Positions 12,804 to 22,629 of a DNA stretch of 64,000 nt are shown in pieces. The stretch spans positions 1 through 64,000 of the forward strand of contig NZ_PHQQ01000029.1 in assembly GCF_002909235.1 (NCBI RefSeq). Reading direction: 5' to 3'. Numbering within the stretch: the first letter of the stretch is position 1; each line of letters opens with the position of its first letter. Below the pieces are notes generated by a model. The model had not been told where the DNA came from, ran no database searches, and saw only the letters and a list, made by a program, of their open reading frames with translations. A program made the position numbers and the translations under genes. Origin of the DNA: Arenibacter catalasegens (GTDB lineage Bacteria; Bacteroidota; Bacteroidia; Flavobacteriales; Flavobacteriaceae).

Positions 12804-13382
12804 TTAAAATTTATAGGAATATCCCAAAAGATAGTTGCCCGTATTACTGCTAAAGGTGATTTCCATATGTTTTTTTTGGTACGGCGTCGTAAAAATATAG
12901 GAGCTGCCAACACCGATTATGGCACCTGCCAAGACATCCCAAACGTCATGTTTATCCGCTTGTAATCTAGTATAGCCTGTAAACCCTGCAAGGGCGTAGG
13001 CAGCGGCACCATATTTCCAACCGTATCGTTTTTGAATAAAGGCCGCACTCTGAAAGGTGGTTGACGTATGTCCTGAAGGAAAGGAAGAATTGTTGCTTAA
13101 ATCCGGTCTTGGCTTATCTATGGCCATTTTTAATCCTATCGTTAGGGCTTGGTTTAACATAAATCCCTTGGTAAACTGCCAGGTTCCCTGTTTATCCCCA
13201 ACTGCTATGGTGCTGCCCAATGCGGATGCTGGTAGGGCAATCAGTAAAACATCACCTATGTCGGTTATAGTTTTGTCCTGAGCCGACAGCATATTGGTGC
13301 CAAAGATTATTAGGGATACTAGAAGTGCTGTCCTGGTGTACTGAGGGATTATTAAGAATCCATTGTTTAAAATAGAAATCAT
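12804..13382 (-). CDS. PAP2-family membrane phosphatase (first copy)
   Basis: This 192-residue protein has a hydrophobic N-terminal export segment (RTALLVSLIIFGTNMLSAQ) and the three acid phosphatase motifs: KMAIDKPRP (K-x6-RP), SFPSGHTS (PSGH) and YTRLQADKHDVWDVLAG (R-x5-H-x3-D). Such enzymes dephosphorylate lipid phosphates such as phosphatidic acid or undecaprenyl or lipid A phosphates in the envelope. The start is set at the ATG at 13382, because the frame upstream runs into the end of the lipid kinase gene. It is last in the sulfatase, lipid kinase, PAP2 operon. Confidence 0.88.
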   Translation of the reverse strand: MISILNNGFLIIPQYTRTALLVSLIIFGTNMLSAQDKTITDIGDVLLIALPASALGSTIAVGDKQGTWQFTKGFMLNQALTIGLKMAIDKPRPDLSNNSSFPSGHTSTTFQSAAFIQKRYGWKYGAAAYALAGFTGYTRLQADKHDVWDVLAGAIIGVGSSYIFTTPYQKKHMEITFSSNTGNYLLGYSYKF

Positions 13383-13458
13383 TTTAAAGCCGTTAACAGG
13401 TGTGCTACTTGCATACCCAATGGTTGGCATAAATAAAATGAATGAATCTAAAGATAAA

Positions 13459-14364
13459 TTAAAGTTGGAGCCCAATGTTTTTGGGGACAAGAATACCCAA
13501 AGATTTCTCCAAGACGGAAATGTTTATGTCTTTATCTTCAACCTTATGGAATTCCCCATCAATTTGCGAGTCTAAAAATAGTCCCTCATTCCTGGAAATT
13601 AGTATTGTTTTGGTTTGATAGGTTTTAATTTCCTTAAGCCAATGGGGCCTGCGGATCAACATGAGAGCACCAAACAACAGCATTTTTAGTTTGCTTATTT
13701 GGGGAACTATTAGTACGTCCAAATGCCCATCCATCAAGGAGGCTTTTGGTGTTAAGCTAATGTTGAATCCAAGTTCGTTCGAGTTGGAGATAAATATTAA
13801 AAAGGGGTTATTAATAACGTGGTTCTCATCTATGCATATCTTAACATTCCTTTTTTTGTTAAACTCGTTAAAGGATTTAAAGGAAGCGGCGAGGTAACCT
13901 ACTAAAGTTCTTTTTTTTAGGGCTTCATAGTTCTTTATGACGTTGGCGTCAAAGCCCATTCCTGTATTGCTAAAAAAATATTGTTCATTTATTCTTCCAA
14001 CATCAATAGTCACCATATCATTCTTTTTAATTACCTCAATGGCTTTTTCAATAACTTGAGGAATCATAAGATGTGAGGCAAGTCCATTGCCAGATCCAAT
14101 GGGTATTATGCCTAGTGTCACGTTAGTGCCTACCAAACAGGAGGCAATTTCATTGATGGTGCCGTCTCCACCGCAGGCCACAATAGTATGGGCCCCTTCT
14201 TTGACTGATTCCTTTGTTAAGACAATGGCCTGTTTTTTAAATTTGGAAAATTTAACGGAAAGGCTGTAATCCGTTTCTTTGAAGTAAGGCTTTAGGTAGT
14301 CAATATCTAAAATATTATTGCCAGAACCGGCCTTGGGATTGATGATAAAATGAATATTCTTCAA
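13459..14364 (-). CDS. Diacylglycerol/lipid kinase family protein
   Basis: This 301-residue DAGK catalytic-domain protein (YegS/DgkB-like) would phosphorylate diacylglycerol or a related lipid. The N-terminus HFIINPKAGSG and the nucleotide loop VACGGDGTINEIA with GIIPIGSGNGLA are diagnostic. The only suitable start is a TTG at 14364, five bases after the stop of the LtaS-like gene, which implies coupled translation. Next to an LtaS-like transferase, a kinase that recycles diacylglycerol makes metabolic sense, because LTA synthases release diacylglycerol. Confidence 0.88.
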   Translation of the reverse strand: MKNIHFIINPKAGSGNNILDIDYLKPYFKETDYSLSVKFSKFKKQAIVLTKESVKEGAHTIVACGGDGTINEIASCLVGTNVTLGIIPIGSGNGLASHLMIPQVIEKAIEVIKKNDMVTIDVGRINEQYFFSNTGMGFDANVIKNYEALKKRTLVGYLAASFKSFNEFNKKRNVKICIDENHVINNPFLIFISNSNELGFNISLTPKASLMDGHLDVLIVPQISKLKMLLFGALMLIRRPHWLKEIKTYQTKTILISRNEGLFLDSQIDGEFHKVEDKDINISVLEKSLGILVPKNIGLQL

Positions 14365-14369
14365 AATAC

Positions 14370-16346
14370 TTATTGCTTTGACTTTAGCCCTTGTTGGGTG
14401 TATAAATAATTAGCTACCTGATAAAATGCGATGGTAGTATCTAGATAATTCTTGTCCATAGGAATTAAAGATAGGTTATTATTGGCGGGATTCCATTCAT
14501 AAAAATTGGCCTTCCTTTGATCTCCCAATACCATTACTTTATTACCCTTTAAAAGTCCTAACTTTCTGTAATTACCTATAAATGCCCTTTCGTCTTCTGG
14601 TTTCATATTAAGAACATCTTTCCCGAAAAGATTACTGGTGTAATCCCAATTTAAAAACGAAAATACTGTGGGGAACATATCTATCTGCGAACAAAGCTTA
14701 TTAACTTTTTGGGGTGCAATATCCGGCAGATTACAGATCATAGCAGGTATGTGATAATTGTTGATGTCCAATTCCCCTCTTCCTGCACTACTGGCACAAT
14801 GGTCGCTCATTATAACCAGTACAGTGTTTTTAAACCAGGGTTTTGTCCTAGCGATTTTTAGAAATTCCCCTATGGCAAAATCGGTATACTTTATGGCTCC
14901 AGCCCTGCTGGTACCGGAGGGAATGTCTATTTTGTCTTCTGGATAGGTGTAGGGCTTGTGGTTGGAGGTGGTCATCACAAAATTAAAAAACGGTTTTTTG
15001 GCTTTGTGGGCCATATCGGCTTCTTTTATTACCTTCCTGTAAATGTCCTCATCGCATACACCCCAAGCATTTTCAAAGGTAACTTCTTCATCCTCAATGT
15101 TGGTTCGTGTAGTTTGTATTCCCTTATCCAATAAAAACCCTCTTCCTCTATCTACAATATTAAAGCCATTGCCGCCAAAGTAGGTGTTCATATTATCGAA
15201 ATAACCATCTCCCCCATAAAAGAAATTGCGGCTGTATCCCATATTTTCAAAGATTTCTCCAATGGTGAATAGTCCTGTATTGTTGGCCCTTTTTACAATG
15301 CTCCTTCCTTGGGTAGGGGGAATGGACAGTGTTATGGCTTCCATGCCGCGTACGGTCCTAGTTCCCGTGGCGTATAGATTGGTAAAAAATATGCTGTTAT
15401 TGGCCAGGCTGTCCAAGGTTGGTGTAATGTTGTAATCACCACCAAGGGAATTTAAGTATTTACCACTTAAGCTTTCGATACAAATAAAGATGATGTTGGG
15501 TTTGATGGGTTTATTGATGGAATCCGTATGGTGAATTGTTCGCAATATGGAATGTTCCTTTGGTTTAATAAAGGTTGCATTTTCATTGTTGAAGGATGCT
15601 TTGACCAGTTCAAAGGCCTTTTCAGTATCTATAGTGTTGTAAAATTCAGTATACGAAAGTTCGTTGTTCCGAAAGGCGGAAAAAAATGAATAGATTCCTG
15701 CCTTGGATAGTTCATTGTTGTATCTGTTGGTAAACTGTTCTGCATGTTTGTTCTTAATAAAAAAGCCTGAAATAATAGTTACACCCAAAACCACAAAAAA
15801 GGGTAGTAACTTGGCCTTAAAGTGGGCCGTACTTTTAAAGGTTTTTGAAAATGCAGCTTTTTTATAAGTGATAAAAATCAAGGTTCCAACAGCTATCAAG
15901 ATCAGGCCAACCAAATAGGGTATGGGGTAGGATTCATTGATGTTTGTGACCACCTCATAGGTGTATACCAAATAATCGACCGCAATAAAATTAAATCTAT
16001 TTTTAAATTCGTCCCAAAAAGTGATTTCGGCGAAGAAAGAAAATAGAAAAATCATTAAACCTATAGTGTAAGCTACATAAGTAATCCATCTATCTACAAT
16101 ACTTCCGTGGAACTTTTGGGGCATTAGCAGTAAATAAATGCAGTAAGGCAATGCAAAGAACGAGATGGTGCCTAGATCAAACAAAAATCCAATACCGAAA
16201 GTAGCGATTAGTGCTCCGATTGAGGTGTCAATTTCCCCAAAGCTCCATATCAGGAATACCATCCTAACTAAAAAAGACAGCGTTAGGAATATTAGGATGA
16301 AAGTTTTTAATAGTGCAAATCGGTCAGGGAATATTTTTTGCCACAT
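14370..16346 (-). CDS. LtaS/MdoB-like membrane sulfatase-family phosphoglycerol or phosphoethanolamine transferase
   Basis: This is a 658-residue protein with about five N-terminal transmembrane helices (residues about 10-190) and a periplasmic alkaline phosphatase/sulfatase-fold domain. Visible catalytic features are PNIIFICIESLSGKY (metal-binding Glu), ATGTRTVRGMEA (nucleophile Thr region), YGGDGYFDN and VLVIMSDHCAS (metal-binding Asp/His). Members transfer phosphoglycerol or phosphoethanolamine head groups from phospholipids to envelope glycans or lipid A. Substrate here is unknown. It leads an operon with a lipid kinase and PAP2 phosphatase and has a direct-repeat regulator box upstream. 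Confidence 0.88.
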   Translation of the reverse strand: MWQKIFPDRFALLKTFILIFLTLSFLVRMVFLIWSFGEIDTSIGALIATFGIGFLFDLGTISFFALPYCIYLLLMPQKFHGSIVDRWITYVAYTIGLMIFLFSFFAEITFWDEFKNRFNFIAVDYLVYTYEVVTNINESYPIPYLVGLILIAVGTLIFITYKKAAFSKTFKSTAHFKAKLLPFFVVLGVTIISGFFIKNKHAEQFTNRYNNELSKAGIYSFFSAFRNNELSYTEFYNTIDTEKAFELVKASFNNENATFIKPKEHSILRTIHHTDSINKPIKPNIIFICIESLSGKYLNSLGGDYNITPTLDSLANNSIFFTNLYATGTRTVRGMEAITLSIPPTQGRSIVKRANNTGLFTIGEIFENMGYSRNFFYGGDGYFDNMNTYFGGNGFNIVDRGRGFLLDKGIQTTRTNIEDEEVTFENAWGVCDEDIYRKVIKEADMAHKAKKPFFNFVMTTSNHKPYTYPEDKIDIPSGTSRAGAIKYTDFAIGEFLKIARTKPWFKNTVLVIMSDHCASSAGRGELDINNYHIPAMICNLPDIAPQKVNKLCSQIDMFPTVFSFLNWDYTSNLFGKDVLNMKPEDERAFIGNYRKLGLLKGNKVMVLGDQRKANFYEWNPANNNLSLIPMDKNYLDTTIAFYQVANYLYTQQGLKSKQ

Positions 16347-16373: not shown

Positions 16374-16408
16374 TAAAATTAGATTTGAAATCTAAGGGAA
16401 ACTTAAAG
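16374..16408 (-). promoter_or_regulatory. Direct-repeat response-regulator box and -7 element upstream of the LtaS-like operon
   Basis: On the minus strand, half-site CTTTAAGTTTC is followed directly by CCTTAGATTTC (16408-16387). After five bases comes TAATTTTA (16381-16374), a TAnnTTTN -7 element about 28 bases before the ATG. The layout is identical in spacing to the boxes before the PAP2, barrel-protein and response-regulator genes. A 17-base palindrome (AGATTT and AAATCT arms, 16379-16395) overlaps it. Confidence 0.7.
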
Positions 16409-16460
16409 TTGAGTAGTTCAGGGGAGTTTGTCCTAATGTTTAAGGTTCTTTAATTTATGA

Positions 16461-16495
16461 CTTTAGATTTTAAAGAGATTTGGAATTTAGCTTTG
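16461..16495 (+). promoter_or_regulatory. Direct-repeat response-regulator box and -7 element upstream of PAP2 (second copy)
   Basis: Half-site CTTTAGATTTT (16461-16471) is followed by the weaker AAAGAGATTTG (16472-16482), then five bases, then the exact -7 match TAGCTTTG (16488-16495). The spacing equals that of the other three boxes. The second half-site keeps only its AGATTT part, so this site may be weaker. Confidence 0.62.
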
Positions 16496-16527
16496 AATTC
16501 CAAAGTATTATTTAAATCTATTAAAAC

Positions 16528-17295
16528 TTGAAATTCATCCGTTTGGTATTCTTGGCATCTATGTGCACAATGTGTGTTGTGACACCCGTCATGGCTCAGC
16601 AATCAAGTCATGATAGTATCGCTTTTTCCAATAAGTATAAGTTTAAATACCCAAGCATAATTGTTCCGGCTTCACTAATTGCCTATGGTATTGTTGGAAT
16701 TGAAAGCGATGGATTAAAGTTGGTTAATTCTGGGGTTAAAGAAGAGGTGAATGAGCATATAGATCAGAAAATAACCATCGACAATTTCTCTCAATATGCC
16801 CCGGGTCTATCTGTATATGGGTTGAACATGTTAGGGGTAAAAGGGGAACATGATTTTTGGGATAGGACCATTATTCTTGCTACTTCGTATGTTATTATGA
16901 GTTCAAGTACCTTGGGATTAAAGGCCATAACTAAGGTAAAAAGACCAGATGGTAGTTCCTTGAATTCCTTTCCTTCAGGTCATACGGCAACGGCTTTTAT
17001 GGGGGCAGAATTTCTATATCAGGAATACAAGTCGGTTTCGCCATGGATTGGTGTAGCTGGGTATTTAGTTGCAACCGGAACAGGGATGTTTCGCGTTTAT
17101 AACGATAGGCATTGGATTACCGATGTGGTCGCCGGTGCTGGGATTGGAATATTAAGCACAAAAATTGCCTATTGGTTAATGCCATATTTTCAAAATAAAC
17201 TTTTTAAAAGGGAAAGGGAAAAGACAACAACTGCAATGTTGGTTCCTTTTTATTCCAAGGAAGCTTTTGGATTGTCATTTACTACGGCTTTTTAA
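16528..17295 (+). CDS. PAP2-family membrane phosphatase (second copy)
   Basis: This 255-residue protein has a signal peptide (MKFIRLVFLASMCTMCVVTPVMAQ) and the PAP2 motifs KAITKVKRP, SFPSGHTATAF and YNDRHWITDVVAG. It probably acts on lipid phosphates at the envelope. The start is a TTG at 16528, which gives a complete signal peptide; an ATG 11 codons later would shorten it. It is only distantly similar to the other PAP2 gene in the window. It is followed after 25 bases by a membrane protein gene and preceded by the shared regulator box. Confidence 0.87.
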   Translation: MKFIRLVFLASMCTMCVVTPVMAQQSSHDSIAFSNKYKFKYPSIIVPASLIAYGIVGIESDGLKLVNSGVKEEVNEHIDQKITIDNFSQYAPGLSVYGLNMLGVKGEHDFWDRTIILATSYVIMSSSTLGLKAITKVKRPDGSSLNSFPSGHTATAFMGAEFLYQEYKSVSPWIGVAGYLVATGTGMFRVYNDRHWITDVVAGAGIGILSTKIAYWLMPYFQNKLFKREREKTTTAMLVPFYSKEAFGLSFTTAF

Positions 17296-17320
17296 TTATT
17301 TAAACTAATCGAAACAATTT

Positions 17321-18058
17321 ATGAAAAAGGTGGCCGAAGTAACACTGGTTTTTTGGGTTATGAAAATATGTGCAACCACCTTTGGAGAAACCGCTGGAGA
17401 CCTGCTATCTATGACTTTAAAGATAGGTTATGGGTTAAGTTCTGTTATACTGCTCGGATTTTTTTTGATGACATTGATACTTCAACTAAAATCAAAAAAA
17501 TACAATCCGGTAATTTATTGGCTGGTAATCATTTCAACCAGTACGGCAGGTACTACCATTTCGGATTATATGGATAGAACTCTTGGCTTGGGATATGCAA
17601 AGGGGTCATTACTGCTCTTTTTGTGTCTCATGATCGTTTTATTGGTTTGGTGGAAGACGGAAAAGTCATTGGAAGTATCCAATATTTCAACCTTTAGACC
17701 AGAGTTGTTTTACTGGATAGCTATCTTGTGCTCCAATACTTTAGGTACTGCCTTGGGTGATTATCTCGCAGATGATTCGGGTCTAGGGTTTGCTGGTGGA
17801 GCACTGTTAATAGGCTTATTGCTACTGGGTGTGGTATTCTTGAAATTTTATACCCAAGTGTCCACTATTTTACTCTTTTGGATTGCTTTTATTTTAACCA
17901 GACCATTTGGGGCCACTTTTGGAGACTTACTAACAAAACCTCTAGAAAAGGGCGGGTTAAATCTCGGGACTATCGGTTCCTCAGCGGTATTACTTTCAAT
18001 TTTGTCCATTTTGATTATAAATGAGCTGGTACGAATGCATAAAAGGGGAATAACTTAA
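17321..18058 (+). CDS. COG4705-like integral membrane protein with four internal repeats
   Basis: This 245-residue, very hydrophobic protein has about eight transmembrane helices. It is built from four copies of a unit with a Thr/Gly-Asp signature: TTFGETAGDLLS, STAGTTISDYMD, NTLGTALGDYLA and RPFGATFGDLLT. Three of them continue into a glycine-rich GLGxAxG-type segment. The repeated Thr/Asp sites within membrane helices suggest an ion or small-molecule channel or transporter, but no function is established that I know of. It is downstream of the PAP2 gene, probably in one operon. Confidence 0.75.
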   Translation: MKKVAEVTLVFWVMKICATTFGETAGDLLSMTLKIGYGLSSVILLGFFLMTLILQLKSKKYNPVIYWLVIISTSTAGTTISDYMDRTLGLGYAKGSLLLFLCLMIVLLVWWKTEKSLEVSNISTFRPELFYWIAILCSNTLGTALGDYLADDSGLGFAGGALLIGLLLLGVVFLKFYTQVSTILLFWIAFILTRPFGATFGDLLTKPLEKGGLNLGTIGSSAVLLSILSILIINELVRMHKRGIT

Positions 18059-18117
18059 AATATTGAATTGATTACTTTGGTTATCGAATAATATAAGACA
18101 AGGGAAGTTTTGTAATA

Positions 18118-20541
18118 TTAAAACTTATACTTAAATCCAACTCTTGCTATCTGTGTTTCAAAATAATTCTCATAAATAGCTGTAAAACCATCACTTTTCA
18201 CTTCCTGCCGTAGGCCAAATGTGTTAAAGATGTCCGAGGCAGATAGTGTAAATTCTCCATGACCGTCCCAAACAATTTTCTTTATACCTGCATCAATCGA
18301 GGATCGTGATAGTTCTTTGCCTTGAGGAATATTCTTGTCCGAGTAATATAAGCCAGTAAGTTGTAGGGTCCAGTTTTTAGGCAAGGTAACTTCGTTATTA
18401 ATTTTAAAATCTCCTGCATTATCGGTTGATTTTTCAATAAGAAATGGCCTCACATAAGGGAATAATAAAGAGCCAGTATAGTTGTCTATGTGGTTTGCGT
18501 ACCAATTAAAACTGGCGGACAATTTCCAATTTCGGGTCATGTCCTGACTTAGCAGTAACTCAATTCCGGTATTTGTGGCATTACCTGTATTTTGATATAT
18601 TTTGTTTACAATATCATAATCAGGGTTGGAGTCGTCTATACTAAAAATACGCATATATTGATCCTTGGTCATTCTGTGGTACAATGCAGAAAAAAGGGAA
18701 CCGCTACCCCAGCTGTATTTATGGGCAAGTTCCATGGCGTCCGTGAATTGTGGCCGTAGATACGGATTGCCCACCTTTAGGAGTTCCGGATCGTCGTATT
18801 TTGGAAAAATCCTAAGTTCTGGTTCCCCTGGTCGGTCTACCCGTCTATTATAGAATACGGAGAACTTATTGTAATCATTGAGTTTATAAGTAAATCGCAG
18901 GCTAGGAAAAAGTTCGAAATAGTTGTAGGCGTCGTTATTTTGATAGTAGTTATTTGCGGGATCTATATCATAAAAAACATCGGTGTGCTCGGCCCGCATA
19001 CCTGCTTCAATGTCAAATTTTTCTTGTTCCAATAAATAGTTGGTGTAAAGGGCATAAAGATTTTCGCCCCAATCGGAATATGCCCCCATATTGGGATATA
19101 TAATACTATTGTTCCCAGGAGTTATAGTATAATCCACGGGTAGTCTTCTGATTCTAGCCTTGGTTCCCAATTCTATTTTTCCGTGCTTTAAAGCCCTGGA
19201 ATAATCCGCAGAGAAGCTTGTTGTATGTTCAACGGCCAAAATATTGGTGGCGTCCCTTCCCACCCTAATGGCGGAACTATCGTTCAGGAAATAGCTTTCA
19301 TCCTCCAGCCCTCTAGTGTATTGTGCATTGGCACTAAGCGTATGTCCAATCTTGGAAAATTTGTGTTTGTAATTAACGGCAACATTTATATAACTTGTAA
19401 TTTCTTCCTCCTGCCAATTGTAATACCTTTCCCGGGTATTGGTATTCAGATTTGTAAAAGCTACCTGCGAGGTGTCTATGTGTTTTTCGCGATCATACAT
19501 TCCGGAAAAGGTGATAGCATCATTTTCAGTAAGCTCCCAATCCAAGCCGCCATTAATAATTACCCTAAATTGTCTGCGGTTTTCAGGTACTTGGGAAATA
19601 GTATTTCTGCCATCATCATAATGGCGGGTAGTAAACTCATTATTTGGCAGGGCTTCCTGCACTATAAATTCCGATAGAACAAAGTAGTTCAATTTATTGG
19701 TCTTGTAATTGAAATTGAGACTGGGAATAAGTTTTGGGTTAAGGGAGAAAGAACCCAGATCGGTCTTGGTGTCCTCCTTCTTTTTATCAAATGCCCCAAG
19801 GCCAAATGAAAGTCCTACATCACCATTAAACCCGGTTTGATTTTCTTTTTTATAAATGATATTGATAATCCCTGCAAATCCATTTGCGTCGTATTTGGCA
19901 GAGGGATTATTGATTATTTCAATTTTTTCGATGTTGGTAGCTGGGATATTGCCCAGTCCTTTTTGATTTCCGTATCCCGTAAGGCTGGATTGTTTTCCGT
20001 CAATTAAAATAACGACCTTATCGCTTCCGCGAAGTATTACTTTACCTTCTTGATCAAAGCTAACCCCGGGCATAGTTTTCATGGCATCCAATACAGAACC
20101 CCCTGATTGGGCAATGTTATCACTTAGGTTAAAGGATTTTTTATTCAATTCAGAATTGGTAGTTGCCTGTTTTGCACTAACCTCTATCTCATTTAGCATT
20201 TCTGCGTCTGGGAATAGTGCTATACGGCCCAGGTCAAATACAGTGTTAAGGCCAGTTGTAATTATTTTTTGTGTTGCTCCTGCATATCCCAAATAAGAAA
20301 AATAAATAGTATAGGTGTCTACCGGGATATTCTCAATTAAGAACATACCATCATCGTCGGTAACGGCCCCTGTTACCAAAACATTATCGGAAAATCGGTT
20401 TACCGAGACATTGGCAAATGGTAAGGTCTCATTAGTGTCGGCATCTATCAATCGCCCAGTGATGCTGATGGATTTCTGTGCGGAAACTGCTGTAAGTCCA
20501 AGTAGTATAAATAGTATTAAAAGGAAGGTGTTTTTTTTCAT
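18118..20541 (-). CDS. Outer-membrane beta-barrel (TonB-dependent receptor-like) protein
   Basis: This 807-residue protein has a signal peptide ending VSAQ, a carboxypeptidase-like regulatory domain (about 24-105), a plug domain (about 130-230, with VILIDGKQSS and NPSAKYDANGFAGIINI) and a large C-terminal barrel ending VGFKYKF. It resembles the OMP_b-brl_3 group of Bacteroidota TonB-linked proteins, whose cargo is usually unknown. It lies downstream of a two-component system in the same direction but has its own promoter with the shared direct-repeat box, so it is a likely output of that system. Confidence 0.88.
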   Translation of the reverse strand: MKKNTFLLILFILLGLTAVSAQKSISITGRLIDADTNETLPFANVSVNRFSDNVLVTGAVTDDDGMFLIENIPVDTYTIYFSYLGYAGATQKIITTGLNTVFDLGRIALFPDAEMLNEIEVSAKQATTNSELNKKSFNLSDNIAQSGGSVLDAMKTMPGVSFDQEGKVILRGSDKVVILIDGKQSSLTGYGNQKGLGNIPATNIEKIEIINNPSAKYDANGFAGIINIIYKKENQTGFNGDVGLSFGLGAFDKKKEDTKTDLGSFSLNPKLIPSLNFNYKTNKLNYFVLSEFIVQEALPNNEFTTRHYDDGRNTISQVPENRRQFRVIINGGLDWELTENDAITFSGMYDREKHIDTSQVAFTNLNTNTRERYYNWQEEEITSYINVAVNYKHKFSKIGHTLSANAQYTRGLEDESYFLNDSSAIRVGRDATNILAVEHTTSFSADYSRALKHGKIELGTKARIRRLPVDYTITPGNNSIIYPNMGAYSDWGENLYALYTNYLLEQEKFDIEAGMRAEHTDVFYDIDPANNYYQNNDAYNYFELFPSLRFTYKLNDYNKFSVFYNRRVDRPGEPELRIFPKYDDPELLKVGNPYLRPQFTDAMELAHKYSWGSGSLFSALYHRMTKDQYMRIFSIDDSNPDYDIVNKIYQNTGNATNTGIELLLSQDMTRNWKLSASFNWYANHIDNYTGSLLFPYVRPFLIEKSTDNAGDFKINNEVTLPKNWTLQLTGLYYSDKNIPQGKELSRSSIDAGIKKIVWDGHGEFTLSASDIFNTFGLRQEVKSDGFTAIYENYFETQIARVGFKYKF

Positions 20542-20567
20542 TATGGTGTTCTAAATTCAAAATTGTG

Positions 20568-20602
20568 GAAAAGTAGGAGAATAATCTAAAGAGAATTTAA
20601 AG
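20568..20602 (-). promoter_or_regulatory. Direct-repeat response-regulator box and -7 element upstream of the barrel protein
   Basis: On the minus strand, CTTTAAATTCT then CTTTAGATTAT (20602-20581), five bases, then TACTTTTC (20575-20568), which differs from TAnnTTTG only at the last base. The start codon follows 27 bases downstream. The first half-site is identical to that of the response-regulator gene's own box. Confidence 0.72.
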
Positions 20603-20627
20603 CTTATCTCCTTGGGCATATTTATTT

Positions 20628-21899
20628 TTAGGAGGCTTGTGTTGTATCAAAATCTATTGAAAAACAATGATGGTCTTTTATATGCTTATAGGAAATATGG
20701 TAACCGTATAGATCACATATTTTTTTTACAATGGCCAGCCCCAAGCCTGTCGATTTTGTTTCCTTGGTTTCCCTGTAAAATCGGGTAAATAGATGTTGTG
20801 GATTGGCAATTGGCTTTTGGCCAAAATTGGATACGGTAAGAATCATGTCTTTAGCTTCAATGGTTATGGGCTCGCTATTGGAGTTATGCTTAATAGCGTT
20901 GGAAATTATGTTGTTGCACAATATCTCCGCTAAATAAGGATCCATGCTGGCCCAAATGTTGTTGGTTTTTTGAAAGGAAAGGGTAATTGAGGTTATCTCA
21001 CTAAAATTTGCGATGATTTGGTCTGTAAGACCGGTAATGTCAATATTTTCCTTGTGCGTAAATTGTTGATTCTCTAATTTGGTCAACAGGGTCAGGCCTT
21101 TGTTTAATTGTGTTAAGCGCTGTATGTCCCTTTGGATAGAGGTTAATTGTTTAAATTGTACCTCGGTTACCGTTTGATCGTTTATTATATTTTCAATTTT
21201 AGCCTGTATAATGGCAAGAGGGGTCTGTAGTTCGTGGGAGACGTCTTCTGTATATTGTTTCAAGTTTTCGTAATCGTCCTTAACTTTACCTGTCAATAGG
21301 GTAATCTCTTTATTCAATTCGGAAAATTCAAGAATTTCACTGTCCAGAAACTGTATTGGTTTTTTGGACAACAACGAAAATGTTTTCATTTGTTCCAAAT
21401 TGTGGAAAAACGGATGCCAGAGCTTCTTGTTATAGGATTTATTTAGATAAAACTGGAAAATAAAAACAAGTAGGATTATAAATATGTAAGAAAGGATTAT
21501 GGCCCATAAAATTTCCTTAGACTCAACAACAAGAACGCGGACAGATATCTTGTAAAATTTGCTGTTTATATTCTTATAGGTAGATAATTCCCTGAACAAT
21601 TCCATTTCATTTTGGGAGGGGTCGTATATGACTGTGTCTTTAGTAAATGTAGCTTGGGGGTGGTCTACCTCCACCACCTCAATTATAGGGGCCAGGGAAC
21701 TGGGGTGTTTTCCTGCAATTAGGGCGCTTTCTATTCTTGCCTCTGCTGAAAACAATTCTTCTTCCACTTCCTGCTTAAGAAGCCAACTTACGTAAAAGTA
21801 GAGCGCAAAGGTACTAATGATCATTAATAGCAAACTGGCCCAAAGAAATGTTTTGGATGCTTGTTGCAACAGCGGTATTTTAATATTCTTCTTGGCCAA
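20628..21899 (-). CDS. Two-component sensor histidine kinase
   Basis: This 423-residue membrane kinase has two transmembrane helices (about 15-37 and 140-165) flanking an extracytoplasmic sensor region of about 100 residues. The DHp domain has VSHELQTPLA (phospho-His near residue 221) and the HATPase region has NIISNAIKHN and TGLGLAIVKKICDLYGY. It starts at a TTG at 21899, four bases after the response-regulator stop, so the pair is translationally coupled. The short sensor domain resembles no ligand-binding fold that I recognise. Confidence 0.9.
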   Translation of the reverse strand: MAKKNIKIPLLQQASKTFLWASLLLMIISTFALYFYVSWLLKQEVEEELFSAEARIESALIAGKHPSSLAPIIEVVEVDHPQATFTKDTVIYDPSQNEMELFRELSTYKNINSKFYKISVRVLVVESKEILWAIILSYIFIILLVFIFQFYLNKSYNKKLWHPFFHNLEQMKTFSLLSKKPIQFLDSEILEFSELNKEITLLTGKVKDDYENLKQYTEDVSHELQTPLAIIQAKIENIINDQTVTEVQFKQLTSIQRDIQRLTQLNKGLTLLTKLENQQFTHKENIDITGLTDQIIANFSEITSITLSFQKTNNIWASMDPYLAEILCNNIISNAIKHNSNSEPITIEAKDMILTVSNFGQKPIANPQHLFTRFYRETKETKSTGLGLAIVKKICDLYGYHISYKHIKDHHCFSIDFDTTQAS

Positions 21900-21902
21900 G
21901 TT

Positions 21903-22577
21903 TTATTCTTCAGTAAATTTATAACCACTCCCGTATGCGGTCTTGATGTATTTTGCACCTTCGAATGTTAATTTTTTCCTCAGGTTGTTGATGTGCACAT
22001 AGATAAAATCAAAATTATCTGCCAAATCGCTATTATCACCCCATAAGTGTTCTGCAATAATTTCTTTGGAGAGTACCCTATTTTTATTCGTAATAAAGAA
22101 AAGTAATAGGTCGAATTCCTTTCTGGTAAGGGTCATAGGAGTGTCCATTATATAGGCGGATTTAGCCCTGGTATCTATTCGTATTTCATTGAATACAATA
22201 CTTTCATCGCCACCAAATTTACCTCGTCTCAAAACGGCTTTTATACGCGAATTAAGCTCGGCCAAATGAAAGGGCTTGGTGATATAATCATCTGCCCCAA
22301 AATCTAGGCCTTCAAGTTTATCGCTCAAGGAGTTGTTGGCTGAAATAATTATTACACCCGCTTTTTTCTTTTCTTTTTTTAGCTGTTTTAGCACATCCAA
22401 GCCACTTCCTGTGACCAAATTGATATCAAGTATAATTATGTCGTAATCATATAGCGATACTTTGTAAATGGCCTCATCATAATTGGAAGCGCATTCACAA
22501 ACATTCCCATCCTTTTCCAAATAGGTAACTATGGATTGTTGTAAAGAAGTTTCGTCTTCTGCTATTAAAAGTTTCAT
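21903..22577 (-). CDS. OmpR-family response regulator
   Basis: This 224-residue regulator has a receiver domain (acidic pocket ED at 7-8, phospho-acceptor Asp51 in IIILDINL, Lys of YITKPFHLAEL) and a C-terminal winged-helix DNA-binding domain (TLTRKEFDLLLFFI...RVLSKEIIAEHLWG...IYVHINNLRKKL...GSGYKF). The start is the ATG at 22577 of MKLLIAEDE; the frame stays open upstream but covers the promoter. It is first gene of an operon with the kinase and has a direct-repeat box in its own promoter, implying autoregulation. Confidence 0.94.
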   Translation of the reverse strand: MKLLIAEDETSLQQSIVTYLEKDGNVCECASNYDEAIYKVSLYDYDIIILDINLVTGSGLDVLKQLKKEKKKAGVIIISANNSLSDKLEGLDFGADDYITKPFHLAELNSRIKAVLRRGKFGGDESIVFNEIRIDTRAKSAYIMDTPMTLTRKEFDLLLFFITNKNRVLSKEIIAEHLWGDNSDLADNFDFIYVHINNLRKKLTFEGAKYIKTAYGSGYKFTEE

Positions 22578-22594
22578 GTACACAAGATAATGAT

Positions 22595-22629
22595 CAAAGT
22601 TACATCTAAAATCTATAGAGAATTTAAAG
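22595..22629 (-). promoter_or_regulatory. Direct-repeat response-regulator box and -7 element upstream of the regulator operon
   Basis: On the minus strand, CTTTAAATTCT then CTATAGATTTT (22629-22608), five bases, then the exact -7 match TAACTTTG (22602-22595). The regulator ATG follows 17 bases downstream. This would be the autoregulatory site. Confidence 0.74.

Follow-up and report, generated by a model that had tools for sequence, protein, structure and literature searches.

Direct-repeat promoter boxes point to a probable self-regulating PmrA-like activator of a local envelope-lipid gene cluster in Arenibacter catalasegens

The 64,000-nucleotide stretch of Arenibacter catalasegens DNA analysed here (the window; contig NZ_PHQQ01000029.1, positions 1 to 64,000 of the forward strand) carries, at ~12.8-22.6 kb, a cluster of genes that runs from an OmpR/PhoB-family response regulator to a PAP2 phosphatase gene (PAP2 a). 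Promoters in this cluster share a design in which two 11-base half-sites in direct repeat stand five bases upstream of a -7 element. Judging from the sequence, the regulator is very probably a self-regulating activator of the PmrA type, which replaces the -33 promoter element at its own operon and at a local envelope-lipid module. Three features suggest that the boxes are bound by the neighbouring regulator: the co-occurrence of kinase and sites, the operator ahead of the regulator gene itself and the pairing of recognition helices with half-sites.

Four 35-mers of this design had been described in the original prediction, and both their coordinates and their letters were confirmed in the window. 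Predicted operator/promoter 1 (22595..22629, minus strand; CTTTAAATTCT CTATAGATTTT N5 TAACTTTG) lies ahead of the response-regulator/kinase operon, an arrangement consistent with autoregulation. Predicted operator/promoter 2 (20568..20602, minus strand; CTTTAAATTCT CTTTAGATTAT N5 TACTTTTC) precedes the gene of an outer-membrane barrel protein, and predicted operator/promoter 3 (16374..16408, minus strand; CTTTAAGTTTC CCTTAGATTTC N5 TAATTTTA) precedes a sulfatase/lipid-kinase operon. The fourth of the boxes described earlier (predicted operator/promoter 5; 16461..16495, plus strand; CTTTAGATTTT AAAGAGATTTG N5 TAGCTTTG), ahead of PAP2 gene b and a DUF347 gene, is weak owing to a poor second half-site, AAAGAGATTTG. 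The repeats had been called identical, which is true of their length and geometry but not of the half-site letters, and all four promoters are real, yet a fifth had been overlooked. This box (predicted operator/promoter 4; 13430..13464, minus strand; CTTTAATTTAT CTTTAGATTCA, TTCAT as the five-base spacer, TTTATTTA) precedes PAP2 gene a, overlaps the lipid-kinase gene by its final six bases and is also present in A. hampyeongensis (L034, at 18411). Against a matrix derived from relatives, the regulator box scores 33.0 bits, the barrel box 33.9, the sulfatase box 26.8, the PAP2 a box 24.1 and the PAP2 b box 12.6. Among the five orthologues of PAP2 b with at least 45% identity, the best upstream site scores 16.3 (L034), 14.1 (L068), 34.3 (L070), 30.8 (L074) and 36.0 bits (L092).

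The four-box observation is real and far above chance. Across the organism's own genome (5.45 Mb, 82 contigs), a first consensus at up to 3 mismatches gave 3 matches (at 13464, 20602 and 22629), all in the window, and the same pattern written backwards gave 0; the barrel box has 0 mismatches to this consensus. When up to 2 mismatches to a relaxed consensus were allowed, there were 4 genome-wide matches, every one in the cluster, and the backwards pattern gave 0; allowing up to 3 raised the count to 5, four in the cluster and one elsewhere, against 2 backwards. Shuffles of the window yielded 0.00 matches to the box pattern. The weak 16461 box is absent from all of these consensus-pattern matches in the own genome. 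Since matches to the strict pattern are confined to the cluster, the regulon found in this genome is the local cluster only.

We then considered relatives. Among 149 genomes of the family, including that of the window, 33 contained a match to the cluster's sensor kinase (E <=1e-20), and the 16 of these at >=35% identity are treated here as carrying kinase orthologues. The matrix was built from 35 seed sites in 16 loci (that of the window and 15 orthologous ones) and was used to scan 80 named loci with flanks of up to 10 kb (1.56 Mb) at a threshold of 14 bits; genomes that supplied seed sites also supply 10 of the 80. The 35-base matrix found 326 sites, compared with 16 for the reversed matrix and 0, 2, 4 and 4 for column-permuted ones. 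In the 70 loci without seed sites it found 283, compared with 14 reversed and 0-2 permuted, and 69 of these 70 had at least one site. Counting the window, 80 of 81 loci carry a site. The boxes are thus conserved ahead of orthologous genes, as the original prediction required of its regulon, in loci from more than 30 named genera. Around more distant kinases (14 loci, L020-L033, ~28-34% identity) there were 2 weak matches at up to 6 mismatches.

The geometry of the boxes is fixed. Half-sites scored at 7 bits in the 80 loci stood 11 bases apart in 244 cases, while other distances from 5 to 40 gave 0-14 cases, with the exception of 22 bases (60 cases), which corresponds to a third half-site. Arrays of at least three consecutive 11-base half-sites were seen at L088:19532-19554 and L103:16782-16804. 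The best -7 element starts exactly 5 bases past half-site 2 in 176 of the 244 pairs, and 35 pairs have none. The consensus of 295 sites reads CTTTARAWT-N2, CTTTAGAWT-N2, N5, TAnnTTTR and amounts to 32 bits in total. When the region ahead of the regulator gene was tested for repeat identity without any motif, a period of 11 emerged in 73% of 86 close loci (periods 7-10 and 12-15, 1-9%) and in 22% of 102 distant loci (other periods, 0-7%). It could be argued that the boxes are a chance or repeat-derived pattern of AT-rich intergenic DNA; single 9-base half-sites are frequent (3432 at 7 bits), and among the 14 kinase-negative genomes that have a match, 5 share a look-alike 34-mer. With an exact spacing and with backwards, permuted and shuffled controls all far lower, we regard this explanation as vanishingly improbable. 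The look-alike, CTTCARAATTACTTTAGAATGTACSGYAARCTTT, is near-invariant in G029, G049, G072, G084, G100, G111 and G117, genomes with and without the kinase, and perhaps lies within conserved coding sequence.

The last part of the box resembles the housekeeping promoter of the phylum. Over the 295 sites, columns 28-35 read T.92 A.98 n n T.92 T.99 T.81 A.50/G.40, in agreement with TAnnTTTG. As described in excerpts of the relevant study, Bacteroidota promoters carry TAnnTTTG at -7 together with a TTTG near -33 that is reported as not found in Flavobacterium (PMC7366714). In the boxes, half-site 1 falls in the -33 region, and TTTG is not kept there (columns 3-8). The spacing expected between -33 and -7 elements is 19-21 bases. 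This arrangement, in which the boxes overlap the -33 region, would also suit a regulator that binds them and represses, covering that region and blocking polymerase until a signal arrives, and autoregulated operons are often repressed. Repressor sites, however, usually vary in position, whereas the five-base spacing to the -7 element recurs as expected if the regulator must touch polymerase, and a repressor reading leaves the missing TTTG against it. The PmrA family is moreover known for activation. Repression therefore appears unlikely to us, and we favour activation in place of a -33 element.

The genes behind the boxes recur across relatives. When a target was defined as an open reading frame (ORF) with a site scoring 14 bits or more within 100 bases upstream, sites were found ahead of the regulator in 60 of 76 cases, the barrel in 40/47, the sulfatase in 30/31, PAP2 a in 40/65 and PAP2 b in 7/13. 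They were found ahead of the lipid kinase in 1 of 32 cases, the sensor kinase in 0 of 80, flanking housekeeping genes in 0 of 19 and other ORFs in 97 of 962, a class that includes weak ORF matches (below 30% identity or 50% coverage; response regulators below 60%, histidine kinases below 43%). The zero and near-zero for the two kinases fit their being second genes in operons. The expected enrichment upstream of envelope genes was borne out, with 187 of the 326 sites ahead of regulator, barrel, sulfatase or PAP2 a genes. Start codons mostly lie 15-30 bases past the -7 element, and farther for PAP2 a.

The other targets form 15 clusters, the largest with 45, 20, 12 and 7 proteins, and the scanned representatives of these four are PepSY-like, outer-membrane efflux (OEP), glycosyltransferase family 2 and PMT-type proteins; the Pfam scan covered one protein from each of 10 of the 15 clusters. 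LptF/G occurs among the other targets as a single case. Barrels below 35% identity were intended as a class of their own, which is empty in the output. At L080:16480-17616 and other loci, genes of the PepSY-like cluster (PF11396 in one representative) stand in tandem, each with its own box; this cluster comprises 45 proteins in relatives and none among the genes of the window's cluster.

The sites also track the kinase. The relaxed pattern, at up to 2 mismatches, matched in 16 of 16 kinase-positive genomes (62 sites) but in only 14 of 133 negative ones (15 sites; Fisher 1.2e-13), and at least 3 sites were present in 12 kinase-positive genomes versus 0 negative ones. Written backwards, it gave 13 matches over all 149 genomes. 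Of the 62 sites, 51 lie within 15 kb of the kinase gene, and the sole site of G037 is not among these. Within the genus, 5 of 13 genomes have the kinase (60-100% identity). In two others, L115 and L124, everything from regulator codon 22 through approximately codon 150 of PAP2 a is deleted, and what is left between the TPR and SerRS genes (L115:1553-1808 and L124:1230-1482) is the regulator promoter with a stub of 21 codons, followed by the end of PAP2 a. The module has therefore been lost as a unit. Another genome of the genus has a regulator-type box on a contig without a kinase match (G159:C1:478690-478723), perhaps a third remnant of deletion.

The nearest PDB chains of the regulator are those of BasR/PmrA (8jo2, 4s04/4s05; E 2e-38), and it falls under the cut-off of the PmrA equivalog model (NF007928, 166.4 vs 330 bits). 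The available portion of a PmrA-DNA structure report assigns specific base recognition to Asn188, Asn196 and Arg210, and hydrophobic base contacts to Thr187, Val192 and His195 (PMC4660055). In our HMMER alignment to these reported contacts, Val192 and Asn196 correspond to V194 and N198, both kept, and His195 is replaced by N197. The boxes resemble those of PmrAB/BasRS in Enterobacteria and Acinetobacter, in which, according to excerpts of a published study, a hexamer is repeated directly every 11 bases, as TTTAAG-N5-TTTAAG in A. baumannii and as YTTAAK in Salmonella; the corresponding form here is CTTTAR-N5-CTTTAG (PMC10927774). The targets of both systems modify envelope lipids, as far as those of the present one can be predicted. 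Unlike PmrAB, the present system belongs to a Bacteroidota host, its box is joined to a TAnnTTTR -7 element rather than a -10 element, its transferase is LtaS/VP1736-like rather than EptA, and its kinase is of the PorY family. We thus describe the regulator as PmrA-like and argue for PmrA-like working from sequence and promoter design, and do not claim PmrA proper.

We extended the comparison of regulator and operator to the phylum, in which 69 of 296 genomes had a kinase match at E <=1e-70 (loci L146-L230 together with the family loci). Recognition helices and half-sites of the regulator's own promoter pair as follows: YVH with CTTTAR, YTH and YQH with CTTCAG or CTTCAA, YAH with TTCAAAATT, and Y[SYT]Q with TTCCnAAAT. 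The pairing used 165 of 188 promoters, leaving out Y[SN]H (11), DVH (8) and NSH (4). Removal of near-duplicates left 139, and for 36 of these no call was obtained at 7 bits. For the 103 called promoters, leave-one-out prediction was right in 89 for helix class and in 100 for group (TTTA, TTCA or TTCC), compared with 19-41 and 30-52 in 15 permutations of labels and 53-71 and 72-87 in 10 permutations within the non-YVH classes. Errors of class fell mostly within the three TTCA classes (YTH right 7/13, YAH right 6/11), and disagreements at group level were limited to L195, L028 and L154. The outlying YVH regulators L194 and L205 have no box and hence provide no independent test of the pairing. 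A strict residue-to-base code, which we had considered, is softened by the same three loci and by the few changes on the tree described below. Boxes of like design with CTTCAG/CTTCAA half-sites also occur in distant Bacteroidota (L160:3756, L167:3474, L175:3479 and 1483), ahead of regulator, barrel or DUF347 genes.

If the binding of box and regulator is taken as the prediction from sequence that it is, the boxes could instead be read by some other regulator, or by an alternative sigma factor, with the two-component genes only as targets; the site does persist at the stub promoter of the two kinase-less genomes. In these two, though, matches other than the stub number 3 and 1, all with 3 mismatches, compared with 1 and 3 for the backwards pattern. 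The -7 part of the box is the housekeeping TAnnTTTG element in the excerpted description (PMC7366714), sites accompany the kinase/regulator pair across the family, and where the adjoining regulator has a different recognition helix, the half-sites differ as well. A different binder is accordingly very unlikely, and we retain the neighbouring regulator as the candidate.

The sensor kinase scores 407 bits against the NCBIfam model NF052314 (PorY family), over its cut-off of 350. In P. gingivalis, according to excerpts of the relevant study, porX and porY are separate 'orphan' genes, PorY acts on PorX, and PorX has a PglZ domain (PMC4800418). The kinase analysed here resembles the PorX/PorY system of Porphyromonas gingivalis in its NCBIfam family; unlike porY, which those excerpts describe as an orphan gene, its gene directly follows that of an OmpR-type regulator (PMC4800418). 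Of 194 loci, 188 have a regulator homologue immediately ahead of the kinase, in a sample in which some genomes occur twice and some kinases fall under the family cut-off. Of the 6 loci without an adjoining regulator, the kinase is within 100 bases of the contig start in four; the others are L016 and L112, whose contigs are equally long, and in L112 the regulator lies ~5 kb from the kinase. One might suppose that the kinase is a true PorY that signals to PorX and type IX secretion, with the envelope cluster incidental, and the family score and the presence on another contig of the genome of a PorX-like PglZ protein (C45:97451-98032, open frame of 514 amino acids, the genome's only PglZ match) agree with this. 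The adjoining OmpR-type regulator gene, here and in the loci just counted, speaks against it, as do the boxes ahead of envelope-lipid genes and the fact that no named target family is a known part of type IX secretion, a check that covered 10 of the 15 other-target clusters, the other five being single proteins. We consider it highly improbable, and the type IX secretion reading that the PorY label invites is disfavoured on the same grounds. The PglZ gene lies ~26 kb from the second-best match to the PorY model (C45:123581-124435, 126 bits), a possible partner of PorX.

Family searches agree with what had been proposed for the genes behind the boxes, namely an LtaS-like sulfatase operon, a PAP2 operon, an outer-membrane barrel gene and an OmpR-type regulator. 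The regulator (21903..22577, minus strand, 224 amino acids) has the Pfam domains Response_reg and Trans_reg_C, both over cut-off (PF00072, 89.9 bits; PF00486, 70.5 bits); its ORF is listed from 22679, and its likely start is the ATG at 22577, downstream of the box. The histidine kinase (20628..21899, minus strand, 423 amino acids) has HisKA and HATPase_c domains and is 91% identical to that of A. hampyeongensis, its best match among named loci; a model of its sensor domain (predicted local distance difference test score, pLDDT, 75.6) had no PDB relative at E <0.001. The outer-membrane beta-barrel protein (18118..20541, minus strand, 807 amino acids) matches PF14905, PF13715 (CarboxypepD_reg-like) and PF07715 (Plug). 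PAP2 phosphatase b (16528..17295, plus strand; PF01569) is followed on its 3' side by a DUF347-repeat membrane protein (17321..18058, plus strand; PF03988 in 4 stretches). PAP2 phosphatase a (12804..13382, minus strand; PF01569) has its ORF listed from 13490 and probably starts at an internal Met (MISILNN...). The second gene of the sulfatase operon (13459..14364, minus strand; PF00781, PF19279) encodes a YegS/BmrU-type lipid (diacylglycerol) kinase, which scores 121.1 bits against TIGR00147 (cut-off 118.65).

The first gene of that operon (14370..16346, minus strand, 658 amino acids) encodes a membrane transferase of the sulfatase superfamily, LtaS/VP1736-like, which matches 3lxq at E 3e-74. 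A Foldseek search with its model (pLDDT 70.7) placed 3lxq (the uncharacterised Vibrio VP1736) first, followed by LtaP, PbgA and LtaS. LtaS identity was not obtained, with 43.4 bits against NF053595, under the cut-off of 970, for a fold similar to LtaP/LtaS. An EptA-type phosphoethanolamine transferase, the N-terminal domain of which is Pfam EptA_B_N, is not supported, since Pfam found PF00884 alone and the fold is LtaS/VP1736-like; EptA and MCR were not among the best 50 of 311 Foldseek matches (E <=0.001).

The gene content recalls other systems. ColRS of Pseudomonas likewise controls a PAP2 gene (PP0900) and the diacylglycerol kinase DgkA, the counterpart here being a YegS-type lipid kinase; unlike the present regulator, ColR binds a 16-base T-tract core rather than an 11-base direct repeat, as given in excerpts of PMC2689224. 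The mcr-1/hpap2 and mcr-3/dgkA pairs also link a head-group transferase to PAP2 or diacylglycerol kinase in the accessible part of their description (PMC7559476); they differ in being plasmid genes with MCR/EptA-type transferases and are likened here by gene content. The protein families suggest envelope-lipid remodelling, since a transferase of LtaS-like fold, a lipid kinase and PAP2 would fit a cycle of head-group transfer and diacylglycerol phosphorylation.

Several points weigh against the reading of a self-regulating activator with a local module. The case is computational, with binding, expression and phenotype all predicted, and box position by itself cannot tell activation from repression. 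The relaxed pattern was drawn after viewing sites in 16 loci, mostly from kinase-positive genomes, and the 16 of 16 is therefore partly by construction, so that the 70 seed-free loci are the cleaner test. Eleven of the 62 sites are not within 15 kb of the kinase, 13 loci have a regulator gene but no site ahead of it at 14 bits, DUF347 has a site in 5 of 18 cases only, and the 16461 box is weak. The motif-free test sets the period and not the gap, gaps 1-2 bases off 5 scoring 42-71% in the close set. On a tree made without the helix there are 2 changes of helix group, 5 of helix class and 5 of operator group, so that the pairing could largely reflect shared descent. Finally, CTTTA boxes go with a YTH helix in L195, and the residue code is therefore not strict.

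With these points in mind, the cluster from the regulator to PAP2 a may be viewed as a single module, complete in itself, for signalling and envelope functions. Its histidine kinase would sense an envelope signal and phosphorylate the PmrA-like response regulator, whose binding would then depend on phosphorylation. Two regulator molecules would sit head-to-tail on the two 11-base half-sites (CTTTARAWT-N2), which end 5 bases upstream of a housekeeping TAnnTTTR -7 element; half-site 1 would replace the -33 element, and RNA polymerase would be recruited. Predicted targets are the regulator-kinase operon, the barrel gene, the sulfatase/lipid-kinase operon and PAP2 a, and more weakly PAP2 b/DUF347. 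Their products would probably move a phospholipid head group onto an envelope acceptor, phosphorylate the leftover diacylglycerol and trim lipid phosphates, a head-group/diacylglycerol chemistry as in PmrAB/ColRS-type responses. In the open-access literature, searched by title and start of abstract, we found no operators of an OmpR-type lipid-gene regulator in Bacteroidota; subscription journals were mostly uncovered.

It is tempting to speculate further that the 'PorY-family' kinases of Bacteroidota are mainly sensors of a PmrA-like regulator, with a shared promoter design of two 11-base half-sites, ~5 bases and TAnnTTTG that replaces the -33 element, in which the residues at PmrA positions Val192 and His193 set the letters (V giving TTTA and T, Q or A giving TTCA at the first position; H giving A at base 5 and Q giving C, TTCC, at the second), the PorY-PorX pair being rewired or additional. 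We put this forward, code included, as a tentative proposal that has somewhat less than an even chance of being right; if true, the DNA recognition of one regulator family could be read as a code. Labelling these kinases PorY may steer their annotation wrongly to type IX secretion. If confirmed, the module described here would offer a sensor-regulator pair with predictable targets, would show the working of such a regulator at promoters that have no -35 element, and would supply recognition helices and their matching half-sites as a natural series.

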